A model generated the notes under the pieces. The model was given only the letters and a program-made list of their open reading frames with translations, was not told the origin of the DNA and made no database searches. Shown piece by piece: positions 1 through 17,768 of a stretch of DNA of 64,000 bases. The stretch covers positions 1 to 64,000 of the forward strand of contig NZ_JAKJSC010000008.1 of NCBI RefSeq assembly GCF_029029525.1, written 5' to 3'. Each line of letters starts with the position of its first letter. Position 1 is the stretch's first letter. The DNA comes from Labilibaculum sp. DW002. Its GTDB lineage: Bacteria; Bacteroidota; Bacteroidia; Bacteroidales; Marinifilaceae. The position numbers and the translations under genes are program-made.

Positions 1-349
1 CATTTTGTGATCGTCTTCACATTACGAGCCTAAGCATCTGAAAACGTGAGAGAAAAAATTTCAAAAAATATAAAATGAGCGAATGCCAAACTGTATTGCT
101 GAGATAAATTGCATTCGCTAACAATAGAAACAATTATCCATTAGGGATAGAAGCGATATCCTTTTGACGAGGAACGAGAGAAAAGATTTAGCGGATAGCC
201 CGACCAATTATCTATTAAAACAAATAGATAATTGGGAATGGCCAGATAAAAAATAGAAATTTTAGTCTTTTTAACTATCCATCGGAAAAGAAATTAGGTA
301 GATATATTATCTTCGTACGATAAAATTGTTTTAACACTTTAATTCTCTC
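1..349. other. Intergenic region with dispersed-repeat remnant and hairpin
   Basis: No convincing coding frame is visible. Positions about 145-205 carry a stretch with the core GCGGATAGCCC (191-201), whose reverse complement GGGCTATCCGC recurs near 3029 in another spacer. This resembles the dispersed intergenic elements I know from Bacteroidota genomes. It is followed immediately by a perfect 13-bp stem hairpin (204-235). The end of the region leads into the mannosyltransferase gene. Confidence 0.5.
204..235. repeat. Perfect 13-bp inverted repeat
   Basis: The arms CCAATTATCTATT (204-216) and AATAGATAATTGG (223-235) are exact complements around a 6-base loop. No T-run follows on either strand, so it is not a standard intrinsic terminator. 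It abuts the GCGGATAGCCC repeat core and may be part of that element. Confidence 0.7.
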
Positions 350-1081
350 ATGGTGACAAATCGTATTGTTATTATACCTACTTACAATGAAAAGGAAAAC
401 ATTGAAGCTATTGTAAGGAAGGTTTTTTCGCTGGATACCCCTTTTGATATTCTTGTTATAGAAGATAACTCGCCTGATGGGACTGCTGCTATTGTGAAAA
501 AGCTACAAAAAGAGTTTTCGCAGCTACATATTATAGAACGTAAGGGCAAACTTGGATTGGGTACGGCATATATTGCTGGATTTAAATGGGCATTGGAACA
601 CAATTATGAATATGTGTTTGAAATGGATGCTGATTTTTCGCACAACCCGGAAGATTTGGTACACCTATATAAGGCATGTTCGGAAAAAGGTGGTGATATG
701 GCCATTGGTTCTCGCTACGTTTCCGGTGTAAATGTTGTAAATTGGCCTATGGGTAGAGTATTGATGTCGTATTTTGCATCGAAATATGTTCGTATCGTTA
801 CTGGTATGAAGATTCATGATGCTACTGCGGGCTTTAAATGCTACACGAAAAAGGTACTTGAAACGATCGATTTGGATAAAATTCGATTTAAAGGCTATGC
901 TTTTCAGATAGAAATGAAATTTACCACATGGAAATTTGGCTTTACTATTATTGAAGTGCCGATTATTTTTACTGATAGAACCCAAGGAACCTCTAAAATG
1001 AGTGGTGGAATTTTTAATGAAGCTGTTTGGGGCGTGATTAAAATGAAATTGAGAAGCTTCTTCACCAAATACGAAAGATAG
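350..1081 (+). CDS. Polyprenol-phosphate mannosyltransferase (GT2 family)
   Basis: Family 2 glycosyltransferase of the dolichol-phosphate mannose synthase type, expected to move mannose or a similar sugar from a nucleotide sugar to a polyprenyl phosphate at the cytoplasmic membrane. The 243-residue protein opens with the nucleotide-binding strand IIPTYNEKENI. It carries the acidic motif DADFSHNPED near residue 95 and an RTQGTSKM segment near 210 typical of this family. There is no C-terminal membrane domain, so it is the short catalytic-only form. It lies 30 bp before dihydroorotase on the same strand. A mannosyltransferase next to pyrC is an arrangement I recall from other Bacteroidota. The exact donor and acceptor cannot be told from sequence. 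Confidence 0.85.
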   Translation: MVTNRIVIIPTYNEKENIEAIVRKVFSLDTPFDILVIEDNSPDGTAAIVKKLQKEFSQLHIIERKGKLGLGTAYIAGFKWALEHNYEYVFEMDADFSHNPEDLVHLYKACSEKGGDMAIGSRYVSGVNVVNWPMGRVLMSYFASKYVRIVTGMKIHDATAGFKCYTKKVLETIDLDKIRFKGYAFQIEMKFTTWKFGFTIIEVPIIFTDRTQGTSKMSGGIFNEAVWGVIKMKLRSFFTKYER

Positions 1082-1111
1082 ATTTACTATACTATATAAC
1101 TAAACAACCAA

Positions 1112-2452
1112 ATGTCAAGTATTCTTATAAAAAATGCCTTGATTATTAATGAAGGCAAAAAGTTTGCAGGAAGTGTTCTTGTAAAAGATCAGTTGATTGA
1201 AAAAATTTATACTTCAGCACCAGAAGTAACAGATCCTAATTGCAAGGTGATTGATGCTGGTGGAAGAATATTAATTCCTGGTGTAATCGACGATCAAGTT
1301 CATTTTCGTGATCCGGGAATGCCTCACAAAGGCGATATATTTACGGAATCGAGAGCAGCTGTGGCCGGAGGAACAACTTCATTTATGGACATGCCAAATG
1401 TAAAGCCTCAAACTCTTACACAAGAATTGCTTGCTGAACGATACAAACTGGGTGCTGAGAAATCTCTGGCTAACTACTCGTTCTATATGGGAGCTTCTAA
1501 CACGAATTTGGAAGAGGTTATTAAAACCAACCCTAAAGATGTTTGTGGTATTAAAATCTTTATGGGGTCGTCTACCGGAAATATGTTAGTTGATGATATC
1601 GATACGCTTTCTCAGATTTTCGAAAAAGCACCTTTGCTTATCGCAACACATTGCGAAGATTCACCAACAATTGATGCCAATCTTGAAACTTACCGTGAGA
1701 AATATGGTGATGACATCCCTATGGATTATCATGGTGAAATTCGATCGGCTGAAGCTTGTTACAAATCATCTTCAAAGGCAATTGAACTGGCTAAAAAATA
1801 CAACACTCGCTTGCATATCCTTCACCTTTCCAGTGGAATAGAAATGGATTTATTCGATAATAAGATTCCATCGAAGGATAAGCGAATCACTTCTGAAGTT
1901 TGTGTTCATCATCTAAGATTTAATGATTCAGATTATGCAGAAAGAAAAGCAAGAATCCGTTGGAATCCTGCCATTAAAACTGCTGATGATCAATCTAAAA
2001 TTTGGGAAGCTTTACTTGACGATCGTTTAGATGTTATTGCAACAGATCATGCGCCACATACAATTGAGGAAAAAGATGGCAACTATATGCAAGCTGCTGG
2101 CGGTGGACCATTGGTACAACACTCTCTTGTTTCTATGCTTGAATTTGCACACAAAGGTAAGCTGTCTGTTGAGAAAGTAATTGAAAAAATGTGTCATGCT
2201 CCTGCTGATGTGTTCCAGGTTGAAAAAAGAGGTTATATCCGTAAAGGTTACTTTGCAGACTTAGTTCTTTTATCAGAAGATGAATGGACAGTAAACAAAG
2301 AAAATATCCTATACAAATGCGCTTGGTCACCTTTCGAAGGCGATCGTTTCCATTATAAGGTAGATCAAACTTTTGTAAACGGACATTTGGCTTACGATAA
2401 TGGTCAATTTGATGAAAGTAATAAAGGAATGCGATTGAGTTTTGATAGATAG
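1112..2452 (+). CDS. pyrC: Dihydroorotase
   Basis: Zinc amidohydrolase that interconverts N-carbamoyl-aspartate and dihydroorotate in pyrimidine synthesis. At 446 residues it matches the long class I dihydroorotases. Visible metal and catalytic motifs are VHFRDPG (about residue 65), the GIKIFMGSSTGNML stretch with the lysine expected to be carbamylated (about 150), ATHCEDSP (about 178), LHILHLSS (about 235), and ATDHAPHT (about 310). All key residues are present. It follows the mannosyltransferase by 30 bp and precedes the lipoprotein by 28 bp, so the three are probably one transcript. Hydantoinase or allantoinase relatives are an alternative, but the motif set and length favour dihydroorotase. 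Confidence 0.9.
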   Translation: MSSILIKNALIINEGKKFAGSVLVKDQLIEKIYTSAPEVTDPNCKVIDAGGRILIPGVIDDQVHFRDPGMPHKGDIFTESRAAVAGGTTSFMDMPNVKPQTLTQELLAERYKLGAEKSLANYSFYMGASNTNLEEVIKTNPKDVCGIKIFMGSSTGNMLVDDIDTLSQIFEKAPLLIATHCEDSPTIDANLETYREKYGDDIPMDYHGEIRSAEACYKSSSKAIELAKKYNTRLHILHLSSGIEMDLFDNKIPSKDKRITSEVCVHHLRFNDSDYAERKARIRWNPAIKTADDQSKIWEALLDDRLDVIATDHAPHTIEEKDGNYMQAAGGGPLVQHSLVSMLEFAHKGKLSVEKVIEKMCHAPADVFQVEKRGYIRKGYFADLVLLSEDEWTVNKENILYKCAWSPFEGDRFHYKVDQTFVNGHLAYDNGQFDESNKGMRLSFDR

Positions 2453-2480
2453 ATCTTCTGAAAAATAACATTGTACTAAA

Positions 2481-2978
2481 ATGATAAAACGTAATAATAT
2501 ACTAACAGCTCTGATTTTTTCAGGGCTGTTTTTGTTTTCCTGCCAGCAGAAAGAGACAGTTAAAAACAATGAGCAAACGGGAATAAAAATAGCAAAGCCG
2601 ATTACTTATGAAGTTTTGGTAAAAAATCCGAATCCCGATGATGATTGGAAAACAGAGTGCTTGGCAAATACCGACACAAAAATATTGGTAGAGGACATTC
2701 TTAAAGCCGTAAAAAATGGAAATTTACCGGCCTTTGATTATTACGACAATCATGAATTATCAAAATCGGAAATTAAAGAAATCATTAAAGAAGGCAATTT
2801 AAGCGAGAACACGGCCAATATACAATTTGAAGAAGAATGGTATTGGGATAAAAACGAACTTGCCTTAAGCAAGAAGGTTAATAAAATAATGTTGGGCTAT
2901 GCTGTATACGATGGTAAAGGAGCTGTTCGTGGTTACAAGGCTAGTTTTGTGATTGATTTAAACTTGAATAAAAATTAA
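2481..2978 (+). CDS. Hypothetical lipoprotein
   Basis: 165-residue protein that I do not recognise. The N-terminus is a basic MIKR followed by a hydrophobic stretch and a lipobox ending FLFSC, with the lipidated Cys at about residue 21, so an outer- or inner-membrane lipoprotein is expected. The mature part is charged, without obvious repeats, and has a possible small beta-rich C-terminal half. It is the last gene of the mannosyltransferase-pyrC run. In many Bacteroidota this slot holds a DUF4296-type lipoprotein, but I cannot confirm that domain here. Confidence 0.6.
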   Translation: MIKRNNILTALIFSGLFLFSCQQKETVKNNEQTGIKIAKPITYEVLVKNPNPDDDWKTECLANTDTKILVEDILKAVKNGNLPAFDYYDNHELSKSEIKEIIKEGNLSENTANIQFEEEWYWDKNELALSKKVNKIMLGYAVYDGKGAVRGYKASFVIDLNLNKN

Positions 2979-3111
2979 CTATTTTAATTACTTAAGGCTT
3001 ATAAGTATTACAATCTATTTTTTGCATTGGGCTATCCGCCCAAACCCGACTTCATTTATTCATTAAAGCCTACTTTTATTTGTATTCATGATTTCCGCTT
3101 TGCTCCAATTG

Positions 3112-3254
3112 TTGGCTTGATCCAAAAAACGAAGCAAAAAAAATCAAGGCTGCTTTTTAAATACCTTTCTTATCTGCCTCATGCTTAAGTGCGGCCAGGT
3201 GATCTTCGAACAATCCCGATAGCTATCGGGACTAAGCTTCCCGGTCTTACTAAA
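3112..3254 (+). repeat. Dispersed intergenic repeat, copy 1
   Basis: Shares blocks in the same order with 5892-6016: a TTGGCTT...CCAAAAA(A)CGAAGC block, an A-run then TCAAGGCT, CTTAAGTGCGGCC, GTGATCTTCGAACAA, and CGGTCTTACTAA. This copy has an extra TCCCGATAGCTATCGGGA palindrome between the last two blocks. It is non-coding in both copies, and the element family is not one I can name. Confidence 0.7.
3214..3231. repeat. 18-bp perfect palindrome
   Basis: TCCCGATAGCTATCGGGA equals its own reverse complement. It interrupts repeat copy 1 and is absent from copy 2, which suggests a separate small palindromic element inserted into the repeat. Confidence 0.7.
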
Positions 3255-3478
3255 TCTTAGAGGCAAAACAAAAACTCTTTAAAATAAATGCCACTTAACG
3301 TGTGCCTTATACAATATTCCTTTATAGGATCACACACTATTAAAACGTCTAAATAAATTTAGTAAAAGCTTTTTTCAGAAACGTTTAGGACGCGATTGAT
3401 TTTCCATCTATTTTTGCACAAAATATTTGAGTCTCGAACATTCTTGATTCTTGATCCTTTAAACTTGACACTTAAAGA

Positions 3479-4420
3479 ATGAAAGTACTATTTATAGATT
3501 CTACCCATCCAAGATTGATGGAGATGCTTGTTGAAGCAGGATTTGATTGCACTTATGCTCCAGAAAAAAACAAGGAAGAGCTTTTAGAGATATTTCCTGA
3601 GTTTGATGGTTTTATTATCCGAAGTAAGTTTAAGCTGAATAAGGAAGAATTAGATCAGGCGGCAAACTTAAAATTTATAGGACGCGTTGGTGCCGGTCTT
3701 GAAAATATAGATGTGCCATACGCCGAAAGCAAAGGAATTACTTGTTTTAATGCCCCGGAAGGTAATCGCGATGCCGTGGGAGAACATGCACTTGGTATGC
3801 TTCTTTGCTTATTCAACAACCTATACCGATGTAACACTGAAGTTGGCATGGGAATGTGGCGTAGAGAAGAAAATCGAGGATTGGAAATAAAAGGTAAAAC
3901 TGTCGGAATTATTGGTTATGGTAATATGGGAAATGCCTTTGCTCAACGCCTTAAAGGTTTTGGTTGTAAAGTAATTGCTTACGACAAATACAAATTCGAT
4001 TATACCGACGAGTATTGCGAAGAAAAACAATTGCAAGATCTTTTCGACAATTGTGATATTCTAAGTCTTCATATACCTCAAACCGAAGAAACCATGTTTA
4101 TGGTAAATGAAGAATTCATAGCTAAGTTCAAGAAACCTTTCTTTCTTATTAACACAGCTCGTGGAAAAATTGTAAGAATTTCTGACTTAGTTAAACATCT
4201 AAAAACGGGTCAGGTTCGTGGCGCTTGTCTCGATGTTTTAGAATACGAGAAAACTTCTTTCGAAGATTTACATGCCAATGAACTTCCTGATGATTTCAAA
4301 TATTTAATTGATGCTGAGAATGTCTTATTAAGCCCGCACGTTGGTGGCTGGACACATGAATCAAACATTAAATTATCAGAAGTTACAGCTCAAAAGATCA
4401 TTGATGAATTTGGGAAGTAA
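3479..4420 (+). CDS. D-2-hydroxyacid dehydrogenase (phosphoglycerate dehydrogenase-like)
   Basis: NAD-dependent oxidoreductase of the D-isomer 2-hydroxyacid dehydrogenase family. The 313 residues show a substrate-binding half, then the Rossmann motif GIIGYGNMG (about 142-150). The catalytic set follows: Arg in INTARG (about 224), an acidic residue in the LDVLEYE segment, and His in SPHVGGWTHES (about 285). There is no C-terminal ACT domain, so this is the short form, unlike E. coli SerA. It stands alone on the plus strand and ends at a strong bidirectional terminator. The substrate could be 3-phosphoglycerate or another 2-hydroxyacid; nearby genes do not decide. Confidence 0.8.
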   Translation: MKVLFIDSTHPRLMEMLVEAGFDCTYAPEKNKEELLEIFPEFDGFIIRSKFKLNKEELDQAANLKFIGRVGAGLENIDVPYAESKGITCFNAPEGNRDAVGEHALGMLLCLFNNLYRCNTEVGMGMWRREENRGLEIKGKTVGIIGYGNMGNAFAQRLKGFGCKVIAYDKYKFDYTDEYCEEKQLQDLFDNCDILSLHIPQTEETMFMVNEEFIAKFKKPFFLINTARGKIVRISDLVKHLKTGQVRGACLDVLEYEKTSFEDLHANELPDDFKYLIDAENVLLSPHVGGWTHESNIKLSEVTAQKIIDEFGK

Positions 4421-4438
4421 TCTCCATTAAAATAAAAC

Positions 4439-4471
4439 AAAGCCTCAATTCGAAAACGAATTGAGGCTTTT
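4439..4471. terminator. Bidirectional terminator
   Basis: AAAGCCTCAATTCG and CGAATTGAGGCTTT form a 14-bp stem around AAAA, flanked by A and T runs. It sits between the convergent dehydrogenase and the minus-strand hypothetical. Confidence 0.9.
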
Positions 4472-4494
4472 GCAATTATATAGGTGCGACCAAA

Positions 4495-5133
4495 TTATAA
4501 AATTAAATTCGGTTCATTTTCACGAATCACGTAAGTTCTAATTTTTTCAACAAATTTAAACAGTATTTCAATCTTCTCTGGTTCCTCAAACCAATCTTGC
4601 GTTGTATAGATTCCAAAATGAGATTCTTCCTTTAGTTCAGGAACAAAACTCACATCAACACCATTAATACCGACCCTTAAACGCAAATCAAATTCCAGAG
4701 CATTTTTAATTATTTCTTGCACTCTCGTATTTGTGAAAATTCGATCGGCTCCAGTCAATTGATATTTTTCAAAAACTACCTTAGAATCGAAATTTTGACT
4801 TCCAGTTTTATTATTCTCATTGTTAGAGAAAAAGTTCAATTTATCGGTAATGAACTTCTTACGAATACTAATTTTTGTTGACTTAGAAACTGGTAAAGAG
4901 AAAAATACCCCACTACAATGCGCTATTCCACTAACATTTTTAGGATCAGAAAAGCAAGTAAAGAAAGTATTACTGTTAGGATGATTCTTAATGTATACTA
5001 ATCTTTTATGATACACAATTGGCTGCATAGCATTTGACGAGTAGGCATCCTCTGAAGATTTAATATCTCGCCCTGTACTTTTTGCAAAATCTTGCAATTT
5101 CTGAATACTTGATTTTTCCCCTTCCATAAACAA
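4495..5133 (-). CDS. Hypothetical protein
   Basis: 212-residue protein without a signal peptide or membrane segment, and I do not recognise the family. It alternates predicted strands and helices. A central basic segment (KISIRKKFITDK) is followed by a Ser/Asn-rich linker of about 15 residues and then a compact C-terminal half. The overall style faintly resembles DUF3137-like proteins, but this is only an impression. ATG codons at residues 1 and 3 are both possible starts. It has its own spacer on each side, so it is probably monocistronic. Confidence 0.55.
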   Translation of the reverse strand: MFMEGEKSSIQKLQDFAKSTGRDIKSSEDAYSSNAMQPIVYHKRLVYIKNHPNSNTFFTCFSDPKNVSGIAHCSGVFFSLPVSKSTKISIRKKFITDKLNFFSNNENNKTGSQNFDSKVVFEKYQLTGADRIFTNTRVQEIIKNALEFDLRLRVGINGVDVSFVPELKEESHFGIYTTQDWFEEPEKIEILFKFVEKIRTYVIRENEPNLIL

Positions 5134-5223
5134 TGATTCTAATATTAATTTGCTTTCAATGACTTACAACAATCAAAGGATTAATTTAGCATAAAAACAT
5201 TTTAGAATCAAAACACATAAGAA

Positions 5224-5763
5224 CTAGAAACCGTAAGCCATACCTAATCCAAAGTAGTGATAAGCCTCATCGGTTAGTTCAATTTCCGATTCCATAATTA
5301 CAGACCATCCATTTCCTATTGAAACTCTGATACCAATTGGCACCCACAATGGAATTGTTGTTTCATCACCAAAGTTGATGTCCATGTCTAAACCAGTAAT
5401 TAGTTTTGTTCCTGATGTTAGTGGTATTGTAATATTTGCTGTTCCATCGAAACAAAAATCATGGAAATGATGCGCTCCTGCCGACAAGGATAGATTTTTG
5501 CTGATACCAAATTCAAGATCACCACCATAATAGTTTACATCTCCAAAGGCACCAATTTTTGCTCCAAGATCAACGTTTCGTCCAATACCTACGCCAGCAT
5601 GAAAAAACATCAAAAACTCTGTATTTCCATCATACACAAACATAGAAGGTTCAAAACCAATTGCTGCTTCTCCACTTCTTAATACTCCAGATGTGTTAAA
5701 AACTTGCGCGTTTCCCACTATTGCAATAAATATCAAACTCAATAATATTATTCTTCTCTTCAT
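5224..5763 (-). CDS. Predicted outer-membrane beta-barrel protein
   Basis: 179-residue exported protein. A signal peptide is clear (MKRRIILLSLIFIAIVGNAQ, cleavage expected after NAQ). The rest alternates short amphipathic strands rich in Gly, Phe and Tyr, such as GAGVGIGRNVDLGAKIG-like segments. The chain ends in the aromatic ...YGF expected of barrels handled by the BAM machinery. Length suits an eight-strand barrel. No catalytic motif or recognised ligand site is visible, and neighbours give no functional hint. Confidence 0.6.
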   Translation of the reverse strand: MKRRIILLSLIFIAIVGNAQVFNTSGVLRSGEAAIGFEPSMFVYDGNTEFLMFFHAGVGIGRNVDLGAKIGAFGDVNYYGGDLEFGISKNLSLSAGAHHFHDFCFDGTANITIPLTSGTKLITGLDMDINFGDETTIPLWVPIGIRVSIGNGWSVIMESEIELTDEAYHYFGLGMAYGF

Positions 5764-5891
5764 AAGTCCTCTTTAAATTATTATCTAGAAACTAAGGAAT
5801 GACCTATAATATTGTATTTAAAAGGACATTTTATAATTCGAGCCGTAAGGCTTTTACTTTTACCTTTTAGAGCCAGAGAGGCTCTTCATTT

Positions 5892-6016
5892 TTGGCTTAA
5901 CCCAAAAACGAAGCAAAAAACTCAAGGCTACTTAAAAAATATCATCCAAATTCTTGTAATACTTAAGTGCGGCCGAGTGATCTTCGAACAAGTTCTCAGC
6001 TTCTCGGTCTTACTAA
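5892..6016 (+). repeat. Dispersed intergenic repeat, copy 2
   Basis: Same block order as 3112-3254 and the same orientation, but slightly shorter and without the internal TCCCGATAGC palindrome. Both copies lie in spacers, about 2.6 kb apart. Confidence 0.7.
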
Positions 6017-6109
6017 AGCTTTACTTCAATTCAGATAACATTTCTTAAAATGCCAGTACAATAGTATGTACATTATCTTTATTTTAATACACCATATTAT
6101 AAAATAAAA

Positions 6110-6136
6110 ATCCCTGCTCCAATCAGGAACAGGGAT
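6110..6136 (-). terminator. Terminator of the methionine operon
   Basis: Read on the minus strand, ATCCCTGTTCC pairs with GGAGCAGGGAT (11 bp with one G-U) around the loop TGATT, followed by TTTTTATTTTAT. It lies 57 bp after the metF stop codon. Confidence 0.9.
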
Positions 6137-6192
6137 CAAAATATTTTATTAGACTCTTATAGGTACTTCGAACGCTGTCAGGTCAATAATTA

Positions 6193-7152
6193 CTAATAAA
6201 TAGCTTTTGCGATATCTCGAACACAATTCGATGCCATTAAGGTATAAAAATGTAATGAAGGAACTCCATGTTTTATCAATTCTTTTGATTGATGAATTCC
6301 CCATTCTGTTCCAAGCTCTTTCACTTGTTCGTTCGTTTTACATTTGCGAACCTCAGCAGCTAATGCTTCGGGAATATCAACTTTAAAAACCTGAGGTAAT
6401 AAATTCAACTGACTAAGTGCAGAGATTGGTTTTATTCCCGGAATTAAAGGCACTGTTATCCCAGCTTCACGAATTTTCTTCTCAAACTCGAAAAACTTTT
6501 GATTATCGAAAAACATTTGTGTGACTATATAGTCAGCCCCGGCATCAACTTTCTTCTTAAGGTGATAGATGTCAGAATCCAAATTTGGAGCTTCTTCATG
6601 CTTTTCAGGATATCCAGCTACGCCAAAAGAAAAAGGAGAATCAAAAGCTTCAGTTTGAGTTCCATCCAAATACTCTCCTTTATTAATTTGATTTACCTGA
6701 TTAATCAAATCAATCGCATATTTGTGCTCTCCCTCAATTGGAATAAAACCATGACGAGGTGAAGAATCTCCACGAAGTAATAACAAATCAGTTATCCCAA
6801 GAAAATTCAAGTCAATCAAAGCATTCTCGGTTTCCTCAGGTGTAAATCCTTGGCAAATAACATGAGGTACAACTGTTAACTTATATTTATTTTTAATTGC
6901 AGCAGCAACGGCAACCGTCCCTGGTCGTTTATTAGTCAGTTTCTTTTGAAAAGTTCCATTAGCAGATTCTGAGAAAATCACCTCATCGCAATGTGACGTA
7001 ATATTTATATACTTAGGATCAAACTCTTTAAGCATATCAATAGTATTGAATACTTTGTAGATACTATTTCCTTTACGAGGAGGCAAAAGCTCAAAAGAAA
7101 AATGTGTGGTCTTATTTTCTATGGCCTGGTTGATATGATCAATTACTTTCAT
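6193..7152 (-). CDS. metF: 5,10-methylenetetrahydrofolate reductase
   Basis: FAD-dependent enzyme reducing methylenetetrahydrofolate to 5-methyltetrahydrofolate, the methyl donor for MetH. 319 residues, close to the usual bacterial size. Visible features include the N-terminal strand with FELLPPRKG (about 20), TSHCDEV (about 53), LLLLRGDSSP (about 123), and TQMFFDNQKF (about 211). It is the last gene of the six-gene methionine operon, 55 bp after metH, and is followed by a strong terminator. Regulation is expected through the SAM riboswitch 9 kb upstream on the same transcript, unless an internal promoter exists. Confidence 0.95.
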   Translation of the reverse strand: MKVIDHINQAIENKTTHFSFELLPPRKGNSIYKVFNTIDMLKEFDPKYINITSHCDEVIFSESANGTFQKKLTNKRPGTVAVAAAIKNKYKLTVVPHVICQGFTPEETENALIDLNFLGITDLLLLRGDSSPRHGFIPIEGEHKYAIDLINQVNQINKGEYLDGTQTEAFDSPFSFGVAGYPEKHEEAPNLDSDIYHLKKKVDAGADYIVTQMFFDNQKFFEFEKKIREAGITVPLIPGIKPISALSQLNLLPQVFKVDIPEALAAEVRKCKTNEQVKELGTEWGIHQSKELIKHGVPSLHFYTLMASNCVRDIAKAIY

Positions 7153-7207
7153 TGGTTTTAGTTAGATATAAGCTTCGAGACAGAAATCTCAATCCTTATT
7201 ATTGATA

Positions 7208-10200
7208 CTATATTATTGCACTAAGCAATTTTTTTGCTTTTTCTTCTGATATTCCTTTACGGGATGCGTAATCCTTCAACTGATCTTCTTTGATTTTATC
7301 AATCGCGAAATACATTGCTTCCGGATGAGCCATTACCAATCCACTTACAGTTGCCGTTGGATACATTGCAAAATTCTCTGTTAAAGTTGCTCCAATATTC
7401 TCCTCTACTTTTAAAAAATCCCAAAGCACCTGTTTTTCTGAATGTTCGGGTAATGATGGATAACCAAATGCCGGGCGAATTCCCTGATAGTTTTCACGAA
7501 GCATGTCCTCTATACTTCCATCCTCATTGGTAGCATAACCCCAATCTTCTTTACGGATTTTTTCGTGCAACAATTCAGTAAATGCTTCTGCCAATCGATC
7601 AGCCAAAATCTTTACCATGATACTGTTGTAATCATCATGATTTTCGTTCAATTTTTCTACAATCTCATCTAATCCCAGACCAGATGTAACTACGAAAGCA
7701 CCTATATAATCAGTTCTGTTAGATTCTTTTGGAGCAATAAAATCGCTCAAGCATAAATTGGTTAAGCCTTTCTTGAATTTCTCTTGCTGACGAACACCAC
7801 AGAAGCGTGTAATTTCTTTCGATCTATCCTCATCCTCGTATAAAACAATGTCATCTCCTACACTATTTGCAGGGAACAGACCAAAAACTGCTGCTGCTTC
7901 AATCAAATTTTTCTCTTCAATCTCATCCAACATCAGATTAGCATCATCAAAAAGTTTCTTAGCCTCATCTTTAAATTCTGCATCCTCCATAATTTCAGGA
8001 TACATACACTTCAGCTCCCAAGCCACAAAAAAGAATGTCCAATCAATATACTTTCGAATTTCGCCAATCGAGTAGTTTTTTAACACCTGCAAACCTGTTT
8101 TATTCGGCTTATGAATCGGTTCAGTAGACCAATCGTAACGTTCCCTATTCGCACGAGCCTCTTCTATAGAATAATATTCTTTTGGTTTTTGATTTTCGTG
8201 AGCAGCTCGAACTTCCTGATATTGTTCTTTAACGGTTGACAGAAATTCATCGCGCTTCTTTTTATTACACAGGTTTTTGAAAATACCAACCGATTTTGAA
8301 GCATCAGCAACATAAACAACACCTCCGGAATAATTGGGTTCAATTTTCACAGCTGTATGCAGTTCTGATGTTGTTGCTCCTCCTACTACCAAAGGAATGT
8401 CTAAACCAAGTCGTTCCATTTCTGAAGCAACAAAAGCCATTTCTTCCAAAGAAGGTGTAATCAAACCACTCAAACCTATAGCATCAACTTTTTCTTCAAT
8501 GGCAACTTCCAATATTTTAGCGCAAGGCACCATCACACCAAGGTCAATTACTTCAAAATTGTTACAGCCCAATACAACGCCAACAATATTTTTACCAATA
8601 TCGTGAACGTCACCTTTTACAGTAGCCATCAGAATTTTACCCGCATTACTTGCTGCTAAACCTTTTTTCTCCTCCTCGATAAAAGGTTGAAGGTAAGCAA
8701 CAGCTTTTTTCATAACCCGAGCAGATTTTACAACCTGAGGTAAAAACATCTTTCCTGATCCAAAAAGATCTCCAACAACATTCATCCCATCCATTAAAGG
8801 ACCTTCAATTACTTCAAGTGCTCTTGGATAATTCTGACGAGCTTGTTCAGCATCCTCATCAATATAGTCAGTAATCCCTTTCACCAATGAATAGGATAAT
8901 CGCTCCTTGACAGGCTTTTCTCTCCAGGCATCCGTCTTAACTACAGCTTTCCCTTGCGATTTCAATCCTTCAGCAAAATCGATTAACTGTTCAGTTGCTT
9001 CCGAATGACGATTAAGGACAACGTCTTCAACTTTCTTAAGAAGTTCTGGTTCAATCTCATCGTAAATCTGCAACATGCCCGGATTCACAATTCCCATATC
9101 CAAACCTTCCTTTATGGCATAATAAAGGAAAACAGAATGCATCGCCTCTCGAACAATATTGTTACCACGGAAAGAAAATGACAGGTTACTAATACCACCA
9201 CTAATTTTAGCATGCGGTAAGTTGGCCTTAATCCAAGTCATTGTCTTAATAAAATCAACAGCATAATTATTGTGTTCTTCGATACCCGTTGCTATAGCCA
9301 ATACATTAGGATCGAAAATAATATCCTCTGGTGGAAAATTTACCTTTTCAGTAAGTGTCTTATAAGCTCTTCCACAAATTTCGATTCGTCGCTCGTAAGT
9401 ATCGGCCTGACCTTTTTCATCAAAAGCCATAATTACGGCAGCTGCTCCGTATCTTTTTATCTTTTGTGCCTTTTCAATAAAATCAGCCTCACCTTCTTTC
9501 ATAGAGATAGAGTTGACCACACATTTACCTTGTACGCATTTCAATCCAGCTTCGAGCACCGACCATTTTGATGAGTCAATCATGATAGGCACTCGAGAAA
9601 TTTCTGGTTCAGAAACCAATAATTTTAGGAAAGTGACCATCTCAGCTTCGGCATCCAACATGGCGTCATCCATATTCACATCAATCACCTGAGCTCCATT
9701 CTCAACCTGACTGCGTGCTATAGACAAGGCTTCTTCGTATTTCTTCTCTCCTATCAAGCGTGCGAACTTTCGAGAACCAGCCACATTGGTTCGTTCTCCC
9801 ACATTCACAAAATTACTTAAGGAATTCACACGCAATAGTTCCAATCCACTCAAACGAGTTTCTTTTTCAACTACAGGAATCTCTCTAGGTTCAGCATCTT
9901 TAACTGCCTGAGCTAATGCTTTAATATGTTCTGGTCGAGTGCCACAACACCCACCTACAATATTTATCTTCTCGCCCTTCAACAAAACTGAAAGGTCAGA
10001 GGTCATCGTTTCAGCAGTTTCGTCGTATTCCCCCAGTTCATTGGGTAGTCCGGCATTCGGATAAACACTTACATAAACGGGAATTAATTTATCTAATTGC
10101 TCAATATATGGTACCAAATCCTTAGCTCCAAAAGCACAATTCAAACCTAAACTCAACAGACGATCTGTCTTCATCGATGTCACAAAAGCCTCCAAGGTTT

Positions 10201-10876
10201 GTCCGGAAAGTGTTCTTCCACTGTTATCGGTAATGGTACCCGAAAGCATGATTGGAATATCAAGATCTCTTTCAGTCAATATTTCATCCGCAGCAAAAAC
10301 AGCAGCTTTAGCATTCAGGGTATCGAAAATAGTTTCAATCAACAAAGCATCTACACCACCATCAATCAAACCTTTTATTTGAACCGAATATATCTCAACC
10401 AAATCATCGAATGATACCTCACGATAACCTGGGTCTTCAACTTTGGGCGACATAGACGCCGTTTTATTGGTTGGACCAATTGCTCCAGCCACCCAACGTG
10501 GTGTTAAAGGATCTTCCTTTAGAATTTCATCAATAACTTCGCGCGCATTCTTGGCGGCTTCAAAATTCAACTCATAAGCTAAGTCTTCCAAACCATAATC
10601 GATTAACGAAATCGCATTGGAATTAAAGGTATTTGTTTCAAGAATATGAGCACCTGCTCTTAAAAAATCTCTATGAATAGATTTTATTATATCAGGTTTG
10701 GTCAAAGTTAATAAGTCATTATGCCCTTTCTGGTCACTTGAGAAATCTGCAAAACGAGTTCCACGAAAATCCGAATCAGTCAACTTGTGTGCCTGAATCA
10801 TTGTTCCCATTGCTCCGTCTAAAACAAGAATTTGCTTCTTTAGTGCTTCTTTTATAGATATCAATTTCTGCTCCAT
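7208..10876 (-). CDS. metH: Cobalamin-dependent methionine synthase
   Basis: Transfers the methyl group of 5-methyltetrahydrofolate to homocysteine through methylcobalamin. At 1222 residues it is full length. The homocysteine domain carries zinc ligands in LNCAFGA (about 245) and GGCCGT (about 309). The pterin domain begins near [12 protein letters not shown] (about 358). The B12 domain has [10 protein letters not shown] with the cobalt-ligand His (about 755). The SAM-binding reactivation domain has [12 protein letters not shown] (about 1134). It lies one base after the aspartokinase stop and before metF. No separate cobalamin riboswitch is visible, so control seems to come from SAM alone. 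Confidence 0.97.
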
Positions 10877-10877
10877 T

Positions 10878-12137
10878 TTAATTTGCGACTGTTAGATAGA
10901 TTGCGGTATTACTATTTTTTTGTTCAACCAAAACGTGATGTTTTAGTTGTATTTCTTCAATTGTAGCTGGTGTGTAATGTCGAACAGTGATTAATTCTAA
11001 ATCATCACTCAATTCAACATCGTATTTTTGCTCTAATTCTTCCACTAAACTCTGCATGTCTCTTGCCGAACTGTTTGCACAAAAAGCAAAGCTAACTGCA
11101 GTGTTCTGAGTAAAATTAAGCTTTATTCTATATTTTGTCACCAAGGTGAAGATAAAAACCAAGTCTTTCTCACCAATAAATGAAAAATTTAAAGGTTTTA
11201 AAGTCACTAACATCTGCCTTTTCTTTACAATGTAATTTGGCAACAATGGTTGCGGCTGATCTCCCTTGGTAATTAATGTTCCTTTTTGCGATGGATCGAT
11301 AAAAGATTTTACCCACAAAGGAATTTTTTTAGCCTGCAAAGGCTTTATGGTTTTCGGATGAATTACTCTTGCTCCATAGTACGACAACTCTATTGCCTCA
11401 TGGTATGGAATCAAATCAATCTTAGTAGTTTCTTCAAAATAATCAGGATCTGCATTTAATATTCCCAACACATCTTTCCATATGATCATTTTATCAGCGC
11501 CAAGCAAGTGAGCCAAAATGGCTGCGGTATAATCAGATCCTTCTCTTCCTAAAGAAGTTGTATTTCCTTCTGGATCTCTGGCAATAAACCCTTGCGTAAT
11601 GTACAATGCAGTCGGATTATCAGAAAATACAGCATTTGCCTTTTCCTTGGAAGAATCCCATAGAATATTGGCATCTACATAATTATCATCTGAATCCAAA
11701 CAGGTTCTGACATCAATCCATTTGTTGCTTTGCTCTATTGAATTTAAGTAAGCAGATACAATTTTTGTTGATAAAAGCTCTCCAAAACCAATCACCTGAT
11801 CGTATTCAAAATTGAATTGATCAGATGATGGTTTCGAAATTTTGGTTTTTAGCTCAATGAAAAGAGCGTTAATTTCCGAATTTAGACTCGTAGGAATTTC
11901 TTCGAATAAATCTTCGATTACTGAAGTGTGGTTTCTCTTCAGTAAATCAAAAAGTTCCAAGGTCTTTGTATCTCCAGAAAAATAAGCATCTACAAGTTCT
12001 TCCAGCAAATTGGTGGTTGTACCAATCGCCGAAATCACGACAGTGAGTGGACGCTTGACTTTGCCAATAATTTGGCAAATATTTTTGATAGCAGTCGCAT
12101 TTTTTACCGATGCGCCACCAAATTTGTATATGATCAT
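10878..12137 (-). CDS. Aspartate kinase (methionine-operon copy)
   Basis: Phosphorylates aspartate, the first step of the aspartate family pathway. 419 residues, monofunctional. Motifs are KFGGASVKN (5-13), [11 protein letters not shown] (about 197) and [10 protein letters not shown] (about 257), then about 120 residues expected to hold paired ACT domains for allosteric control. It lies between hom and metH with only one base before metH, so it is dedicated to this operon and should be controlled by SAM. A clear paralogue lies at 16515-17768. Which effector inhibits this copy cannot be told. Confidence 0.93.
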
Positions 12138-12160
12138 TTTTTGATATCTGATTAGTGTTG

Positions 12161-13351
12161 CTATTCTTCGCCTAAGTATGCTAGGAAAATATCTTTCCCT
12201 TCAATTTGCTTTCGGATTTTTATCAGTTCTGAAATATTCAAAGTTCCAATCACATAATTAAAATCTTTCCCTTTAAGCGATTCTGAGATTTCTTTGAAAT
12301 TAAATAAGGCCAAGTCGTTGGTATCTGAATACCTTAAATAGATTTGAACCGGCATATCATTCGTGTATTCTAAACCACCATAATATTTCAATTTCTTGTA
12401 CTCATACTTATAATTATAAGCCAAAGCCGTAATATCTGAAAGTACCGCCGATCCTGTTGGATGCGAACCAGCTCCTTTACCATACATAAACTGGTTATCG
12501 TAGAAATTCCCTTGGATCAACACACCATTATAATGATCTTCGACTGTATAAGCATGTTCCGAAGGTTTTACAAATTTAGGTGCTACCAATAAATTCACAT
12601 GATTACCATTCACCTTAGTTACTTTACCTAATAAACGAATCTTATAGCCTTTTTGTGAAGCCAATTGAATATCATTAGCTGTCAATCTTGAGATACCAAT
12701 ATTAAAAACCTGATCAGGATGAACAAACAATCCAAAACCATGTACTGTAAGCGTAATTAGTTTATAAAGCGTATCGAAACCTTCAACATCAGATGTTGGA
12801 TCGCTCTCTGCAAATCCCAATTCTTGTGCTTGTTTTAAAGCTACCTGATAATCTGAATTTTCATTGAAAATTTTACTCAAGATATAATTTGATGAGCCAT
12901 TTAAAATACCACTTACCGATTGCAATAAGTCATTATCGTAATACTCCTCAAGATTACGGATGATTGGAATACTACCACAAGCCGATGCTTCATATAAGAA
13001 TGATACCTTCTTCTCCCATTGTAATTGAATCAACTCCTCGATATGATAGGCTAACATCTTTTTATTTGCAGAAACAACATGTTTTCCATTCTGAAGCGCT
13101 GTTTTTACAATTCGATACGCCTCATCAGCATCATCAATCAATTCTGCAACAACATTAATCTTTGGATCATTCAAAATATCATCTGGATTAGTGGTTAGTA
13201 ATTTAGAATCTATATCTCTTTCCTTTTCTGCATCCTTCACACAAACTTTTACGATTGATGCATCTAAGCCTTTACTATTTTTAAGAACGTGGGCCAATCC
13301 AGAACCAACTACTCCGAATCCGAAAATGCCTATTTTTAATTTATTGCTCAT
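12161..13351 (-). CDS. hom: Homoserine dehydrogenase
   Basis: Reduces aspartate semialdehyde to homoserine. 396 residues. The nucleotide-binding motif GFGVVGSG is at 10-17, ANKKMLAYH with the expected catalytic Lys near 105, and the GSSNYILSKIF signature near 150. It is monofunctional, not fused to a kinase, and lacks a recognisable C-terminal ACT domain. Its start overlaps the last 11 bases of metX, which implies translational coupling. It sits between metX and the aspartokinase, so the operon covers both ends of the aspartate-to-homoserine branch. Aspartate semialdehyde dehydrogenase is not in this window. Confidence 0.93.
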   Translation of the reverse strand: MSNKLKIGIFGFGVVGSGLAHVLKNSKGLDASIVKVCVKDAEKERDIDSKLLTTNPDDILNDPKINVVAELIDDADEAYRIVKTALQNGKHVVSANKKMLAYHIEELIQLQWEKKVSFLYEASACGSIPIIRNLEEYYDNDLLQSVSGILNGSSNYILSKIFNENSDYQVALKQAQELGFAESDPTSDVEGFDTLYKLITLTVHGFGLFVHPDQVFNIGISRLTANDIQLASQKGYKIRLLGKVTKVNGNHVNLLVAPKFVKPSEHAYTVEDHYNGVLIQGNFYDNQFMYGKGAGSHPTGSAVLSDITALAYNYKYEYKKLKYYGGLEYTNDMPVQIYLRYSDTNDLALFNFKEISESLKGKDFNYVIGTLNISELIKIRKQIEGKDIFLAYLGEE

Positions 13352-14375
13352 TGCTATTGTTGTCGATTAAGAAGGTTTTTAATACTTGAGTTAGTTGTTC
13401 TTGTTCCAAAAGGAATCCATCATGTCCGTAAATCGAATTGATTTCAAGGAATTCTGCCTTTGGAATATGATCTGCAATAAATCTTTGTTCTTGAATTGGG
13501 AAAATTTGATCAGAATTCACACCAATAACCAATGTTCTTGATTTTATTCCGCTTAAAGCTGAAACCAAACCATTTCTACCTCTTCCCATATCATGGCTGT
13601 CCATGATCTTTGATAAATGCCAATAAGCATAGGCATTAAATCTTCTGGCTAACTTCTCTCCTTGGTATCGTTGGTATGAACTTGCACGGTAATCATCTAC
13701 TTTTCCTTCCTCATTTTCTTGCTGAGAATGATCGTAGGTAGCATAAGTCCGATAGCTCAATAAGGCAATCGATCGAGCAACACGCATGCCATTCAATCCT
13801 GCTTTATCATTCGATTCTTTCCAAGTTGAATCATTTGCAATCGCCATTCTTTGCGACTCATTAAAAGCTATTCCCCAAGGCGAATGCTGTGCATTACTTG
13901 CCAAGAAAACCAGATGATCTAAATATCCATTCAAATTGTAAGCCCACTCTAAAGCTTGCATCCCACCAAGAGAACTTCCAATCAGCGTGTGAATTTTTTC
14001 AATGCCTAGTTCTATTCGTAAAAGTTCATGAGCCGCAGTCAAATCACGAACGCTTAAGTGTGGAAAATCATGATAATAAGCCTGTCCGTTGTCCGGATTT
14101 TTTGAAAGAGGACCAGTTGAGCCATAACATGAAGCAAGTGTATTGTCGCATACGATGAAATAATCTTTCGGGTTAAAGAAATCTTCTTCACCAAATAAAC
14201 CAGCCCACCAATCGAAAACATCTGAATTAGCTGTTAGTGCATGACAAACCCATATCACATTATTTTTCTCAGGATTATATTCTCCATAAGTGTGATAAGT
14301 TAGTTCTAGCTCTTTCAGACATTCGCCTGATTCAAGTTCTAAACCTTCTTTATGGATATAACAATTGGAATTCAC
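13341..14375 (-). CDS. metX: Homoserine O-acetyltransferase
   Basis: Alpha/beta-hydrolase-fold acyltransferase that activates homoserine for sulfur addition. 344 residues. The nucleophile elbow is GSSLGGMQALEWA (Ser about 147), the acid is expected in VIGVNSDQIFP (about 295), and the His is in YGHDGFLLE (about 325). All members of the triad are present. Sequence alone does not fully separate acetyl from succinyl transfer in the MetX fold. The downstream partner MetY accepts O-acetylhomoserine, which favours acetyl. It overlaps hom by 11 bp. Confidence 0.92.
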   Translation of the reverse strand: MNSNCYIHKEGLELESGECLKELELTYHTYGEYNPEKNNVIWVCHALTANSDVFDWWAGLFGEEDFFNPKDYFIVCDNTLASCYGSTGPLSKNPDNGQAYYHDFPHLSVRDLTAAHELLRIELGIEKIHTLIGSSLGGMQALEWAYNLNGYLDHLVFLASNAQHSPWGIAFNESQRMAIANDSTWKESNDKAGLNGMRVARSIALLSYRTYATYDHSQQENEEGKVDDYRASSYQRYQGEKLARRFNAYAYWHLSKIMDSHDMGRGRNGLVSALSGIKSRTLVIGVNSDQIFPIQEQRFIADHIPKAEFLEINSIYGHDGFLLEQEQLTQVLKTFLIDNNSNEQ

Positions 14376-14503
14376 AGTTTACAATTTTTGTTTTGTTTGT
14401 TGTTTTGTATTAAGAATAGATTGCACAATGCTAAACTTGTACAAATACTAGTTCCCAGTCGATCACCTACGAGAAGATGATCGGCTGGGATAAACTATAA
14501 AAA

Positions 14504-15859
<1,356 letters not shown>

Positions 15860-15874
15860 CTATTTGCTTTTTTA

Positions 15875-15907
15875 TTAGCATGGCCACCAGTTTTCCTGAT
15901 TTGCCAT
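15875..15907 (-). CDS. Possible 10-residue mini-ORF before metY
   Basis: ATG-started frame giving MANQENWWPC with tandem TAA TAA stops, ending 51 nt before metY. An AAGGAG-like purine run lies 16 nt before the ATG, which is too far for a normal site. The surrounding sequence is open in more than one frame, so this may not be translated. It is listed because of its position and the WW and terminal Cys codons. Confidence 0.2.
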   Translation of the reverse strand: MANQENWWPC

Positions 15908-15955
15908 CCAGCACAAAAGCCTACTCCTTGATTAAAAAAATTGTTTAATTGGTTA

Positions 15956-15972
15956 GAAACCTAAAAGGTTTC
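15956..15972 (-). terminator. Possible attenuator hairpin in the metY leader
   Basis: GAAACCT and AGGTTTC form a 7-bp stem with a 3-nt loop. A run of seven U follows about 15 nt later on the minus-strand transcript, further than usual for an intrinsic terminator. It could be a weak terminator or the stem of a larger switch. Confidence 0.3.
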
Positions 15973-16167
15973 GAATGGTCACAAATACAGATCTATCTTA
16001 TCAGTAAACTATCTGAATGTGGTTTTTTCAGGTTTAGTTGTACCTATTCCTTGTTCTGAAAATACAGAAACATGAAAATTAAGCAAGATTGAATTTGAGT
16101 TCCCTAATCGGAGTTATTTTATACGCACCGGCATCTAAAAAAGGGGAAATTTTATAGACAGAATGCG

Positions 16168-16287
16168 TTATAGCATACGCATAGCCATTTGCATTCGCAT
16201 CATTGGAGTTGATGCATTATGTAGTTGCAAATGTAAATTTAACTCCTGTGGAGTTACCTGATTGATGTAATGATTTTCTGTCTTCAT
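16168..16287 (-). CDS. Met-rich 39-residue leader ORF
   Basis: ATG to TAA, 39 codons. Residues 29-39 read MMRMQMAMRML, so six of the last eleven codons are AUG, in the pattern Met-x-Met-x-Met-x-Met; the whole frame has seven Met. It begins 7 nt after the SAM riboswitch P1 3' arm and ends 344 nt before metY. A GGAGTTA/TAACTCC hairpin lies inside it (16240-16256). The codon make-up and position are those of a leader peptide sensing methionine or Met-tRNA, but I know of no named example. It could also be a small functional protein. Its start context is A/U-rich, as is usual in Bacteroidota. Confidence 0.6.
   Translation of the reverse strand: MKTENHYINQVTPQELNLHLQLHNASTPMMRMQMAMRML
16240..16256 (-). 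promoter_or_regulatory. Hairpin within the Met leader ORF
   Basis: On the transcript, TAACTCC (16256-16250) pairs with GGAGTTA (16246-16240) around ACA. Another exact TAACTCC lies at 16116-16110 and a shorter AACTCC at 16209-16204, so the single GGAGTTA has competing partners up- and downstream of the Met run. Confidence 0.45.
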
Positions 16288-16293
16288 AATTTC

Positions 16294-16402
16294 TAATTTA
16301 TATTCACCAATTACTTGGTCAGGATTTGACACCTTTCGGTTTTGGTACCGCGGTTGTCAGAAGGTCATCGAGCCTGTTCTCTCACTTCTTCTGTATAAAT
16401 TA
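16294..16402 (-). promoter_or_regulatory. SAM-I riboswitch
   Basis: Read on the minus strand, the conserved core is clear. P2 arms CAGAAG and CTTCTG enclose AAGTGAGAGAACAGGCTC with GATGA. Then come ACAACC, a P3 hairpin CGGT/ACCG, AAAGGTGTCAAATCC, and a P4-like GTCA/TGAC helix. P1 is UAAUUUAUA (16402-16394) with UAUAAAUUA (16302-16294), nine pairs. This is the S-box class that binds S-adenosylmethionine and shuts methionine genes off. Its P1 3' arm ends 7 nt before the Met-rich mini-ORF start, so ligand-stabilised P1 would be expected to hide that initiation region. It heads the metYX-hom-ask-metHF operon. Confidence 0.93.
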
Positions 16403-16441
16403 TAGATATCCTCCTAGGAGTTTTACCTTAAATAACTTTGA

Positions 16442-16472
16442 CAAAGATAGAGAAGTTTTTTAATTGTCCAAA
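16442..16472 (-). promoter_or_regulatory. Bacteroidota-type promoter of the methionine operon
   Basis: On the minus strand the -33 element TTTG (16472-16469) is followed by exactly 19 nt and the -7 element TATCTTTG (16449-16442). This matches the phylum consensus TTTG-N19-TAnnTTTG. It places the start about 30-35 nt before the riboswitch P1. Confidence 0.8.
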
Positions 16473-16514
16473 CAATTAAGACCTCTTTGTCTTTTTATTT
16501 TTTAAGTTAAAATC

Positions 16515-17768
16515 CTAAACCAACACAAATTGAGCTGTGTCTCTACTTCGCTGTTCTAACAGTATTTCTCTACCTTTCGTCATTCTTTCAACTGCCTCTT
16601 GGTTATGATGACGAATGGTTATCAATTCCAAGTCATCATTGTATTTTACCTCAAAATCGATTGATATTTCTTCAATTAATTCTTTTAATCGTCTGTCAGA
16701 ATTATCAACACAGACCGAAAAACTAATTGCTGAATTCTGAATTAAATTTACTTTGACGCGATGTTTTGCAAACAAGGAAAACAAGGAACTCAACTTTTCT
16801 TCCAAAATAAAAGAGAAGTCAATTGGGCGAATCGAAATCAAGACCTGATCCTTTTTTTGAATGTAAACAGGAAGTAAATAATCTAATTTTTTAGATGCGG
16901 TGCTAATTAAAGTTCCCGATTCATTCAAATCAAGAAAAGAGCGCACTTGCAATGGAATCTTTTTCTTTTTTATTGGTTGTATTGTCTTTGGGTGGATCAC
17001 CTTTGCTCCATAAAATGCAAGCTCTATTGCCTCCTGATAAGTAATCCGTTCTAATTTTTGTGCATCTGGCAACCATTTCGGATCTGCATTCATGATTCCT
17101 GGTACATCTTTCCAAATTGCCAACTTATCAGCATCTAAAATATAGGAAAGAATTGCGGCTGAATAATCAGAGCCTTCTCTTCCTAAAGTAGTTGTTTGAT
17201 TGGTTTTTGTTCCACCAATAAAGCCTTGAGTTATATAAACGAAAGTACTGTTGAAACTAAATGTTTGTGAGACCAACTTCTCTGATAATTTCCAATCAAT
17301 TCTCCCCTCTTTGTATGTATCATCCGTTTTTAAACAAGTACGAATATCTACCCACTTATTTGGACGACCACTTAAGCGAAGAAATTCAGATACAATTGTG
17401 GTTGAAATCAGCTCCCCGAAAGATACAATTTGGTCATACTCAAATTCAAAACACAAAGACGGCTCTTTTTCAAGATATTGTGACAATTGATTAAAAAGAA
17501 CTTCAATCTTTTCATATACTGCATCCTCTTTTTTAGGAAACAATTCATTTACTATTGATAAATGATATTGTTTTACAGCTAATAATTTAGAGTCTTGATC
17601 ATTTTTATTAAAAAAGGCTTCAACAATTTCTTCCAACGCATTAGTCGTTTTCCCCATAGCAGAGAGAACAATTATTGTTTCCTCCCTATACGACTGAACG
17701 ATCTTCACAAAATTACGCACGCCATCAGCACTATTTACCGAAGCTCCACCAAATTTAAATATGTTCAT
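16515..17768 (-). CDS. Aspartate kinase (second copy)
   Basis: 417-residue paralogue of the kinase at 10878-12137. It shows KFGGASVNS (5-13), GREGSDYSAAI (about 197), KVIHPKTIQPIKKKKIP (about 256) and a C-terminal pair of ACT-like segments. Catalytic motifs are intact. It lies just upstream of the riboswitch-controlled operon on the same strand, but the operon promoter begins after its stop. It is therefore not controlled by that riboswitch. No lysine riboswitch or amino-acid-rich leader is visible upstream. It may feed lysine and threonine, while the other copy serves methionine. Confidence 0.9.
   Translation of the reverse strand: MNIFKFGGASVNSADGVRNFVKIVQSYREETIIVLSAMGKTTNALEEIVEAFFNKNDQDSKLLAVKQYHLSIVNELFPKKEDAVYEKIEVLFNQLSQYLEKEPSLCFEFEYDQIVSFGELISTTIVSEFLRLSGRPNKWVDIRTCLKTDDTYKEGRIDWKLSEKLVSQTFSFNSTFVYITQGFIGGTKTNQTTTLGREGSDYSAAILSYILDADKLAIWKDVPGIMNADPKWLPDAQKLERITYQEAIELAFYGAKVIHPKTIQPIKKKKIPLQVRSFLDLNESGTLISTASKKLDYLLPVYIQKKDQVLISIRPIDFSFILEEKLSSLFSLFAKHRVKVNLIQNSAISFSVCVDNSDRRLKELIEEISIDFEVKYNDDLELITIRHHNQEAVERMTKGREILLEQRSRDTAQFVLV

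Follow-up and report, generated by a model that had tools for sequence, protein, structure and literature searches.

Leader region of the metY locus

The 64,000-nucleotide stretch of contig NZ_JAKJSC010000008.1 from Labilibaculum sp. DW002 analysed here (the window) raises the question of what a SAM-I (S-box) riboswitch acts on when the start codon of a short, methionine-rich reading frame lies directly beside it. On the minus strand the order of elements is a promoter-like pair, a SAM-I aptamer, 7 nt, an ORF of 39 codons, a spacer of about 345 nt and metY. A first-pass annotation of the sequence had pointed out both the riboswitch, placed at 16402-16294, and the Met-rich ORF, and this observation was confirmed. 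Rfam model RF00162 matched positions 16295-16401 of the minus strand over its full length with 75.5 bits (gathering score 44.4), showing the sequence and structure that define SAM-I, and the annotated coordinates were right to within one base. In this match the P1 helix is formed by arms at 16401-16394 and 16302-16295, of which the A/U-rich 3' arm (TATAAATT; 16295-16302, minus strand) stops 7 nt 5' of the leader ATG.

The leader ORF occupies 16168-16287 of the minus strand (ATG 16287-16285; stop codon TAA 16170-16168) and encodes the peptide MKTENHYINQVTPQELNLHLQLHNASTPMMRMQMAMRML, in which all six internal Met residues fall within the final 11 residues, in agreement with the annotation of a Met-rich ORF 7 nt past P1. 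Direct reading of the sequence places this run, MMRMQMAMRML, with its six AUG codons, at 16171-16203 (minus strand). The locus has the short ORF with a run of a pathway amino acid near its stop that is expected of a ribosome-read attenuator. The promoter-like pair (16442-16472, minus strand), recognized by motif, consists of TTTG (16472-16469), which was looked for in the window alone, and TATCTTTG (16449-16442). All 17 of the 17 loci aligned have the motif TAnnTTTG, which we take to be the Bacteroidota -7 box, at -48/-49 relative to the aptamer, and only one of them has another TAnnTTTG promoter between its leader and metY.

The first downstream gene is metY, encoding O-acetylhomoserine sulfhydrylase (14504-15823, minus strand; TIGR01326, 652 bits against a cut-off of 495). 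It is followed on the same strand by profile matches to metX-like, homoserine dehydrogenase and aspartate kinase genes (10878-14375), MetX models scoring below their curated cut-offs for the metX-like gene, and we infer that these genes are co-transcribed with metY. The met genes have an aspartate kinase gene on either side, at 10878-12137 following homoserine dehydrogenase and at 16515-17768 directly upstream of the riboswitch. A Flavo-1 RNA of unknown function (RF01705, 48.9 bits) lies elsewhere in the window at 132-209 (plus strand). No T-box was matched in 15800-16480 up to an E value of 5, or across the window at the gathering score, and a relaxed Rfam scan of 15800-16480 returned, besides SAM, just three snoRNA matches far below their cut-offs.

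The contig itself is a fine mosaic. Between approximately 12500 and 17800 it alternates between stretches that match Ancylomarina sp. DW003 (L053) at 99.9-100% identity and Labilibaculum-like stretches, where identity to a Labilibaculum MAG (L058) is mostly 91-100%, and positions 16400-16101 are identical to L053 with Labilibaculum-like sequence on both flanks. Alternation of the two sources was seen across approximately 500-17500, with switches at intervals ranging from a few hundred to about 1500 bases, and between 22000 and 42500 identity to the sole Labilibaculum genome compared (G079) swings from approximately 73 to 100%. The window genome is listed with 4.19% contamination. The contig is probably a chimeric assembly of Labilibaculum- and Ancylomarina-like DNA, mixed assembly seeming a more likely cause of the mosaic than natural recombination. 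Since riboswitch and leader are present at L053 as well as at L058, the two source loci, the finding is independent of the mosaic.

Loci and definitions

SAM-I loci were collected by three routes. The first, through the window genome's family and other relatives, gave all 46 family loci above the cut-off and 10 more from the same order. The second took named metY loci in GTDB genomes, 80 in all, of which 52 had SAM-I upstream and 28 lacked it. The third, a phylum search, supplied 89 loci among the matches listed (60 chosen across genera plus 29), this list being ranked by score and so favouring canonical aptamers. The total of 197 loci, reached with L142 (28 bits, below the cut-off) and L156 (contig edge) left out, was dereplicated to 154, comprising 101 other loci and 53 of an AU-P1 class, which was defined after inspection of the sequences as having a P1 that ends in TATAA followed by A or T, within the final 13 nt. 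As a control, 29 TPP riboswitch loci of relatives were taken among the matches listed, with L199 excluded. A fused leader was defined as an ATG ORF at most 16 nt past P1 with at least three Met/Cys among its last 12 residues, and for the family count the stricter requirement of at least four was applied.

Conservation of the leader ORF beside P1

Occurrence of the leader ORF beside the riboswitch is beyond chance. Within the GTDB family of the window genome, 42 of 46 SAM-I loci carry the leader (at least four Met/Cys, at most 16 nt past P1), and those without it are L012 and L017, from one genus, and L003 and L138, which are cys-operon copies. Among dereplicated AU-P1 loci of the Bacteroidota the leader was found in 36 of 53, in comparison to a mean of 0.16 and a maximum of 2 in 50 dinucleotide shuffles, with the other 17 falling short of the threshold for a fused leader; none of the 29 TPP loci had a Met/Cys leader. 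The leader was present at only 7 of the 101 other dereplicated SAM-I loci (Fisher 2e-15), and the first ATG lay 4-16 nt past P1 in 51/53 AU-P1 loci versus 17/101 others (Fisher 2e-23), P values that are descriptive and not tests because the P1 classes were drawn after inspection and the loci share ancestry.

Comparison with relatives had been proposed in the first-pass annotation as a check, with an ORF that was absent, frameshifted or not Met-rich in close relatives counting against its reading. That outcome did not arise: relatives conserve the mini-ORF along with its Met run and the spacing between P1 and the ATG. Their leaders drift at the N-terminus and differ in length by whole codons, with the Met run retained. 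Codon differences over 25 pairs of leaders comprised 224 non-synonymous and 86 synonymous changes, an excess that hardly suggests selection on the peptide beyond the run.

Fused, serial and separate forms

Applying these thresholds to the 52 named metY loci with SAM-I gave 30 fused, 8 serial and 14 that were neither. Eight of the last group have an ATG ORF 4-11 nt past P1 with one or two late Met/Cys, and in two others, L114 and L122, a Cys-rich ORF below threshold lies farther downstream; L104, described below, also belongs to this group. A Met/Cys leader was also present within 400 nt at 10 of the 28 named metY loci without SAM-I (shuffle mean 0.03), which indicates that leader and riboswitch are separable modules.

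In the serial layout, represented by 13 loci hand-picked after inspection, a Cys-rich ORF starts 131-383 nt past the aptamer, and a strong terminator stands 35-73 nt past the aptamer in 8 of these 13. In L003 and L138 the terminator is absent right after the aptamer and present after each leader, L071 has a weaker terminator match at the leader end only, and L157 and L114 have none. Eight serial loci (L071, L075, L078, L085, L102, L117, L125 and L128) are metY loci of Chitinophagaceae and other Bacteroidota; their Cys-run ORFs, mostly ending in MP, lie 131-383 nt past SAM-I, and all except L071 have a strong terminator 35-68 nt past the aptamer. A second SAM-I of the window's own genome (L003; C1:1622000-1634500, minus strand) heads a sulfate-assimilation operon, where tandem Cys leaders (..NNCCCCMYIPIDKG and ..MMCCICCMCCCMR..) located 148 and 341 nt past the aptamer are each followed by a strong U-tract intrinsic terminator, making three regulators in series. 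Genome G067 (L138) has the same arrangement of SAM-I and two Cys leaders.

One locus, from a Bacteroides sp. MAG (L104), is leaderless, and the ATG of metY itself lies 10 nt past an AU-rich P1. Judged from its sequence, L104 would represent a version of the switch that acts directly on translation of metY, and a metY start in this position is expected if P1 acts on an adjacent start codon. At L166, which has a canonical P1, a long ATG ORF begins 5 nt past P1 and is taken as an N-terminal extension.

Composition of the Met/Cys run

At the level of sequence, the pairing of riboswitch and leader recurs in many Bacteroidota, with Cys often replacing Met. The metY leaders of Ancylomarina, Labilibaculum and Marinifilum have ends like MMRMQRMMRML, while members of the same family with an HcyBio gene (assigned by PF01837 in the one member tested) have leaders ending in MSMRMRCMR or MDMRCMR. 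Cys or mixed ends (e.g. CMCMCCCCC) occur at named metY loci of Mucilaginibacter, Pedobacter, Solitalea, Cesiribacter, Splendidivirga and a Saprospiraceae MAG, and leader Cys codons include both TGT and TGC. Several Sphingobacterium leaders have only one or two late Met (..RMR) and would be weak sensors. At L010 and L011 (G026 and G033), SAM-I and a Met/Cys leader, with ends MLCMRMCMRMC and MLCMRMCMC, precede a gene for an NhaC-type transporter, its family tested on L010 only, which is a candidate methionine transporter.

Structure of the leader RNA

Two structural features were examined, a hairpin inside the ORF and a set of alternative helices around its stop codon. The first, a candidate pause hairpin at 16240-16256 (minus strand), was found by alignment of 18 leaders; its four core pairs are present in 18/18 clade leaders and its three non-core pairs form in only 6/18 leaders each. 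Changes on both sides were seen at four of its seven pairs, a value reached in 0 of 500 shuffles, and further standard pair types were not above shuffles (466/500 as high).

The alternative helices involve four predicted strands on the minus strand. Strand 1 (ATGCA, 16190-16194) is predicted to pair with strand 2 (ATGCGT within the Met run, 16177-16182), which may instead pair with strand 3 (ACGCATT, starting in the stop codon, 16162-16168, defined from aligned columns); strand 3 may in turn pair with GGTGCGT (16129-16123) in the strand 4 block GGTGCGTATAAAATAACTCCGA (16108-16129). The 1:2 pairs are kept in 17-18 of 18 leaders and are barely variable, with no covariation; two of 12 rows lose one or two pairs of 2:3; and strand 3 columns are invariant in 12/12 except for one U to C change that retains the pair. 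RNAalifold of the stop region of 12 relatives likewise found no covariation. Because 1:2, 2:3 and 3:4 are nearly invariant, their conservation does not prove pairing. In 23 of 56 family genomes the strand 4 pattern was matched with zero mismatches 3' of the SAM-I metY leader, and elsewhere it gave two extra matches with 2 mismatches each. Folding assigned energies of -6.2 kcal/mol to the 2:3 hairpin alone and -10.2 kcal/mol to 3:4, and the minimum-energy fold of 16203-16100 combines 1:2 with 3:4, leaving 2:3 as the alternative. A further helix is possible 3' of strand 4 between TTTCCC and GGGAA. In the wider set of leaders folding is enriched just past the stop (mean z -1.13, 13/50 below -2; control -0.10, 3/50), and the coding regions are not clearly structured (mean z -0.44).

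Proposed mechanism

We consider it probable that the locus is a SAM-gated attenuator read by the ribosome. With high SAM, the aptamer would keep P1 closed and, as the P1 3' arm is the A/U-rich stretch just 5' of the AUG, the leader would stay untranslated; strands 1:2 and 3:4 would then fold and metY would be off. With low SAM and charged Met-tRNA, ribosomes would reach the stop and depart, allowing 3:4 to fold, and metY would again be off. With low SAM and scarce Met-tRNA, a ribosome would stall at the early Met codons and cover strand 1, so that strand 2 would pair with strand 3, 3:4 would be blocked, and metY and the following genes would be transcribed. The resulting logic would be NOT SAM AND NOT charged Met-tRNA, or Cys-tRNA in many relatives. 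In this scheme we infer SAM binding, the block of initiation and stalling at Met/Cys codons.

The first-pass annotation had suggested that P1 occludes the leader start, and this suggestion held in part. The spacing fits, since 51 of 53 AU-P1 loci have their ATG 4-16 nt past P1, but folding with P1 forced leaves the AUG unclosed: the P1 arm alone closes, and predicted openness over the 10 nt surrounding the AUG stays at 0.53. The block would thus have to be due to the P1 helix lying within the 30S footprint.

Alternative explanations and the output step

The locus could alternatively hold two independent devices in series, a riboswitch with its own platform and a separate leader attenuator whose closeness reflects packing, an arrangement that we regard as unlikely. 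The serial class does look like this, with a terminator 35-73 nt past the aptamer in 8 of 13 loci, and metY loci without SAM-I keep leaders alone. The fused class, however, has little room for a separate platform, its P1-AUG distance is fixed at 4-16 nt in 51/53, and few strict terminators lie near the fused leader stop (7/55, 3.1 expected from shuffles), for which reason strict intrinsic terminators were rejected as the general output of fused leaders. In the window, no terminator-like site was found between aptamer and leader, and thus no S-box terminator platform. Its strict scan from stop-45 to stop+150 found none, and a simple terminator scan of 15700-16600 gave a sole match at 16256-16240, inside the leader ORF.

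It is also conceivable, and in our judgement improbable, that in the window's family a hairpin spanning the final Met codons and the stop terminates transcription through a U-rich tail and that a ribosome on the run prevents this directly, as in pyrBI-type coupling. A loosened scan found a stop-overlapping hairpin with a U-rich tail in 18 of 50 leaders versus 2.1 by shuffle, 17 of the 18 being in the window's family, and an example from the HcyBio group has GCGTATGCGCTGCATGCGC followed by TAATATTCTTTT. These criteria, however, were loosened post hoc, after the sequences had been seen, and the strict scan gave just the 7/55 noted above. The stop-overlapping hairpin of the window is weak and passes the loosened scan only; its tail (TTCTGTCTATAAAA) is only moderately U-rich, and at -6.2 it is weaker than 3:4 at -10.2 kcal/mol.

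That the ORF encodes a working Met/Cys-rich microprotein (e.g. metal- or thiol-binding) and not a sensor is very doubtful: the C-terminal run of sulfur residues is conserved, but there is no Pfam match, the N-terminus drifts, and Met is swapped for Cys beside mostly sulfur-metabolism genes. A chance ORF is hardly credible, even in an A/T-rich region where ATGs are common, given 0.16/53 in shuffles against 36 seen and 0/29 for TPP.

As to the output step of the SAM-gated attenuator, a U-tract directly 3' of strand 4 is absent in the aligned relatives, and 3:4 is followed by AUAAAAUAAC instead. Possible ways in which 3:4 might stop expression are RNA decay, pausing and Rho. Reinitiation of translation at metY was discounted in view of the gap of approximately 345 nt.

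Relation to known systems

Classical trp and his attenuators have regulatory codons on strand 1, alternative 1:2, 2:3 and 3:4 helices and a leader hairpin. The predicted helices of the present locus share their strand layout, but initiation here appears to be SAM-gated and 3:4 is without a U-tract. It has the aptamer and kind of target gene in common with S-box SAM-I riboswitches (RF00162) and differs in that a terminator is absent after the aptamer and the leader AUG lies where the platform would begin.

Two-input logic is already known from SAM-I/T-box-Met tandems upstream of metX/metY (PMC9481103), which have the same inputs, SAM and Met-tRNA charging, and a predicted NOT A AND B logic. In those tandems the tRNA is read by the T-box RNA, whereas here it is proposed to be read by the ribosome on Met/Cys codons, and a riboswitch helix abuts a leader start codon here. 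The accessible text of PMC9481103 makes no use of the term 'leader peptide' (0 occurrences). The B12 riboswitch of M. tuberculosis ppe2, which has a translated uORF, likewise gates translation of a short upstream ORF, but that uORF acts by termination-reinitiation, whereas a gap of approximately 345 nt to metY and a Met/Cys run are found here (PMC11260477, from the portion available). Actinobacterial cys operons have Cys-run leader peptides for which Rho-dependent control was proposed (PMC1262725); there too the Cys codons stand near the stop without conserved terminators, and Rho is a candidate output step here as in that proposal. Those leaders belong to a different phylum and involve Cys only, and no riboswitch is noted in the accessible part of that report.

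Within the Bacteroidota, attenuation by leader peptides ahead of amino-acid operons is a suggestion already made for Flavobacterium psychrophilum (PMC9723704), and Bacteroides thetaiotaomicron has long 5' UTRs with short ORFs reminiscent of leader peptides (PMC7366714), as far as the accessible portions of these sources go. A riboswitch paired with a Met/Cys leader was not found in the available portions of PMC2965389, PMC8632094, PMC4833913, PMC9373788 and PMC6230763. Literature searches within open-licence PMC papers, supplements aside, found no riboswitch-Met-leader tandem, in line with the first-pass annotation, which knew of none described in Bacteroidota.

Implications for the Bacteroidota

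We lean slightly towards a Bacteroidota regulator class whose riboswitch has an attenuator leader's start codon as its output, the metabolite thereby gating whether a ribosome reads a tRNA-charging signal. As serial layouts use the same aptamer and the leader is also found alone, the fused form may represent two joined modules, and the fused, serial and leader-only forms together with the one direct metY form make a natural comparison. If true, this reading would explain the missing recognisable terminator platform of these SAM-I RNAs. Bacteroidota make little use of Shine-Dalgarno pairing, and the locus would, if the reading is true, test how metabolite switches work in such a phylum. Many Bacteroidota would then control sulfur amino-acid synthesis by computing NOT SAM AND NOT charged Met-/Cys-tRNA in one RNA, without a T-box.
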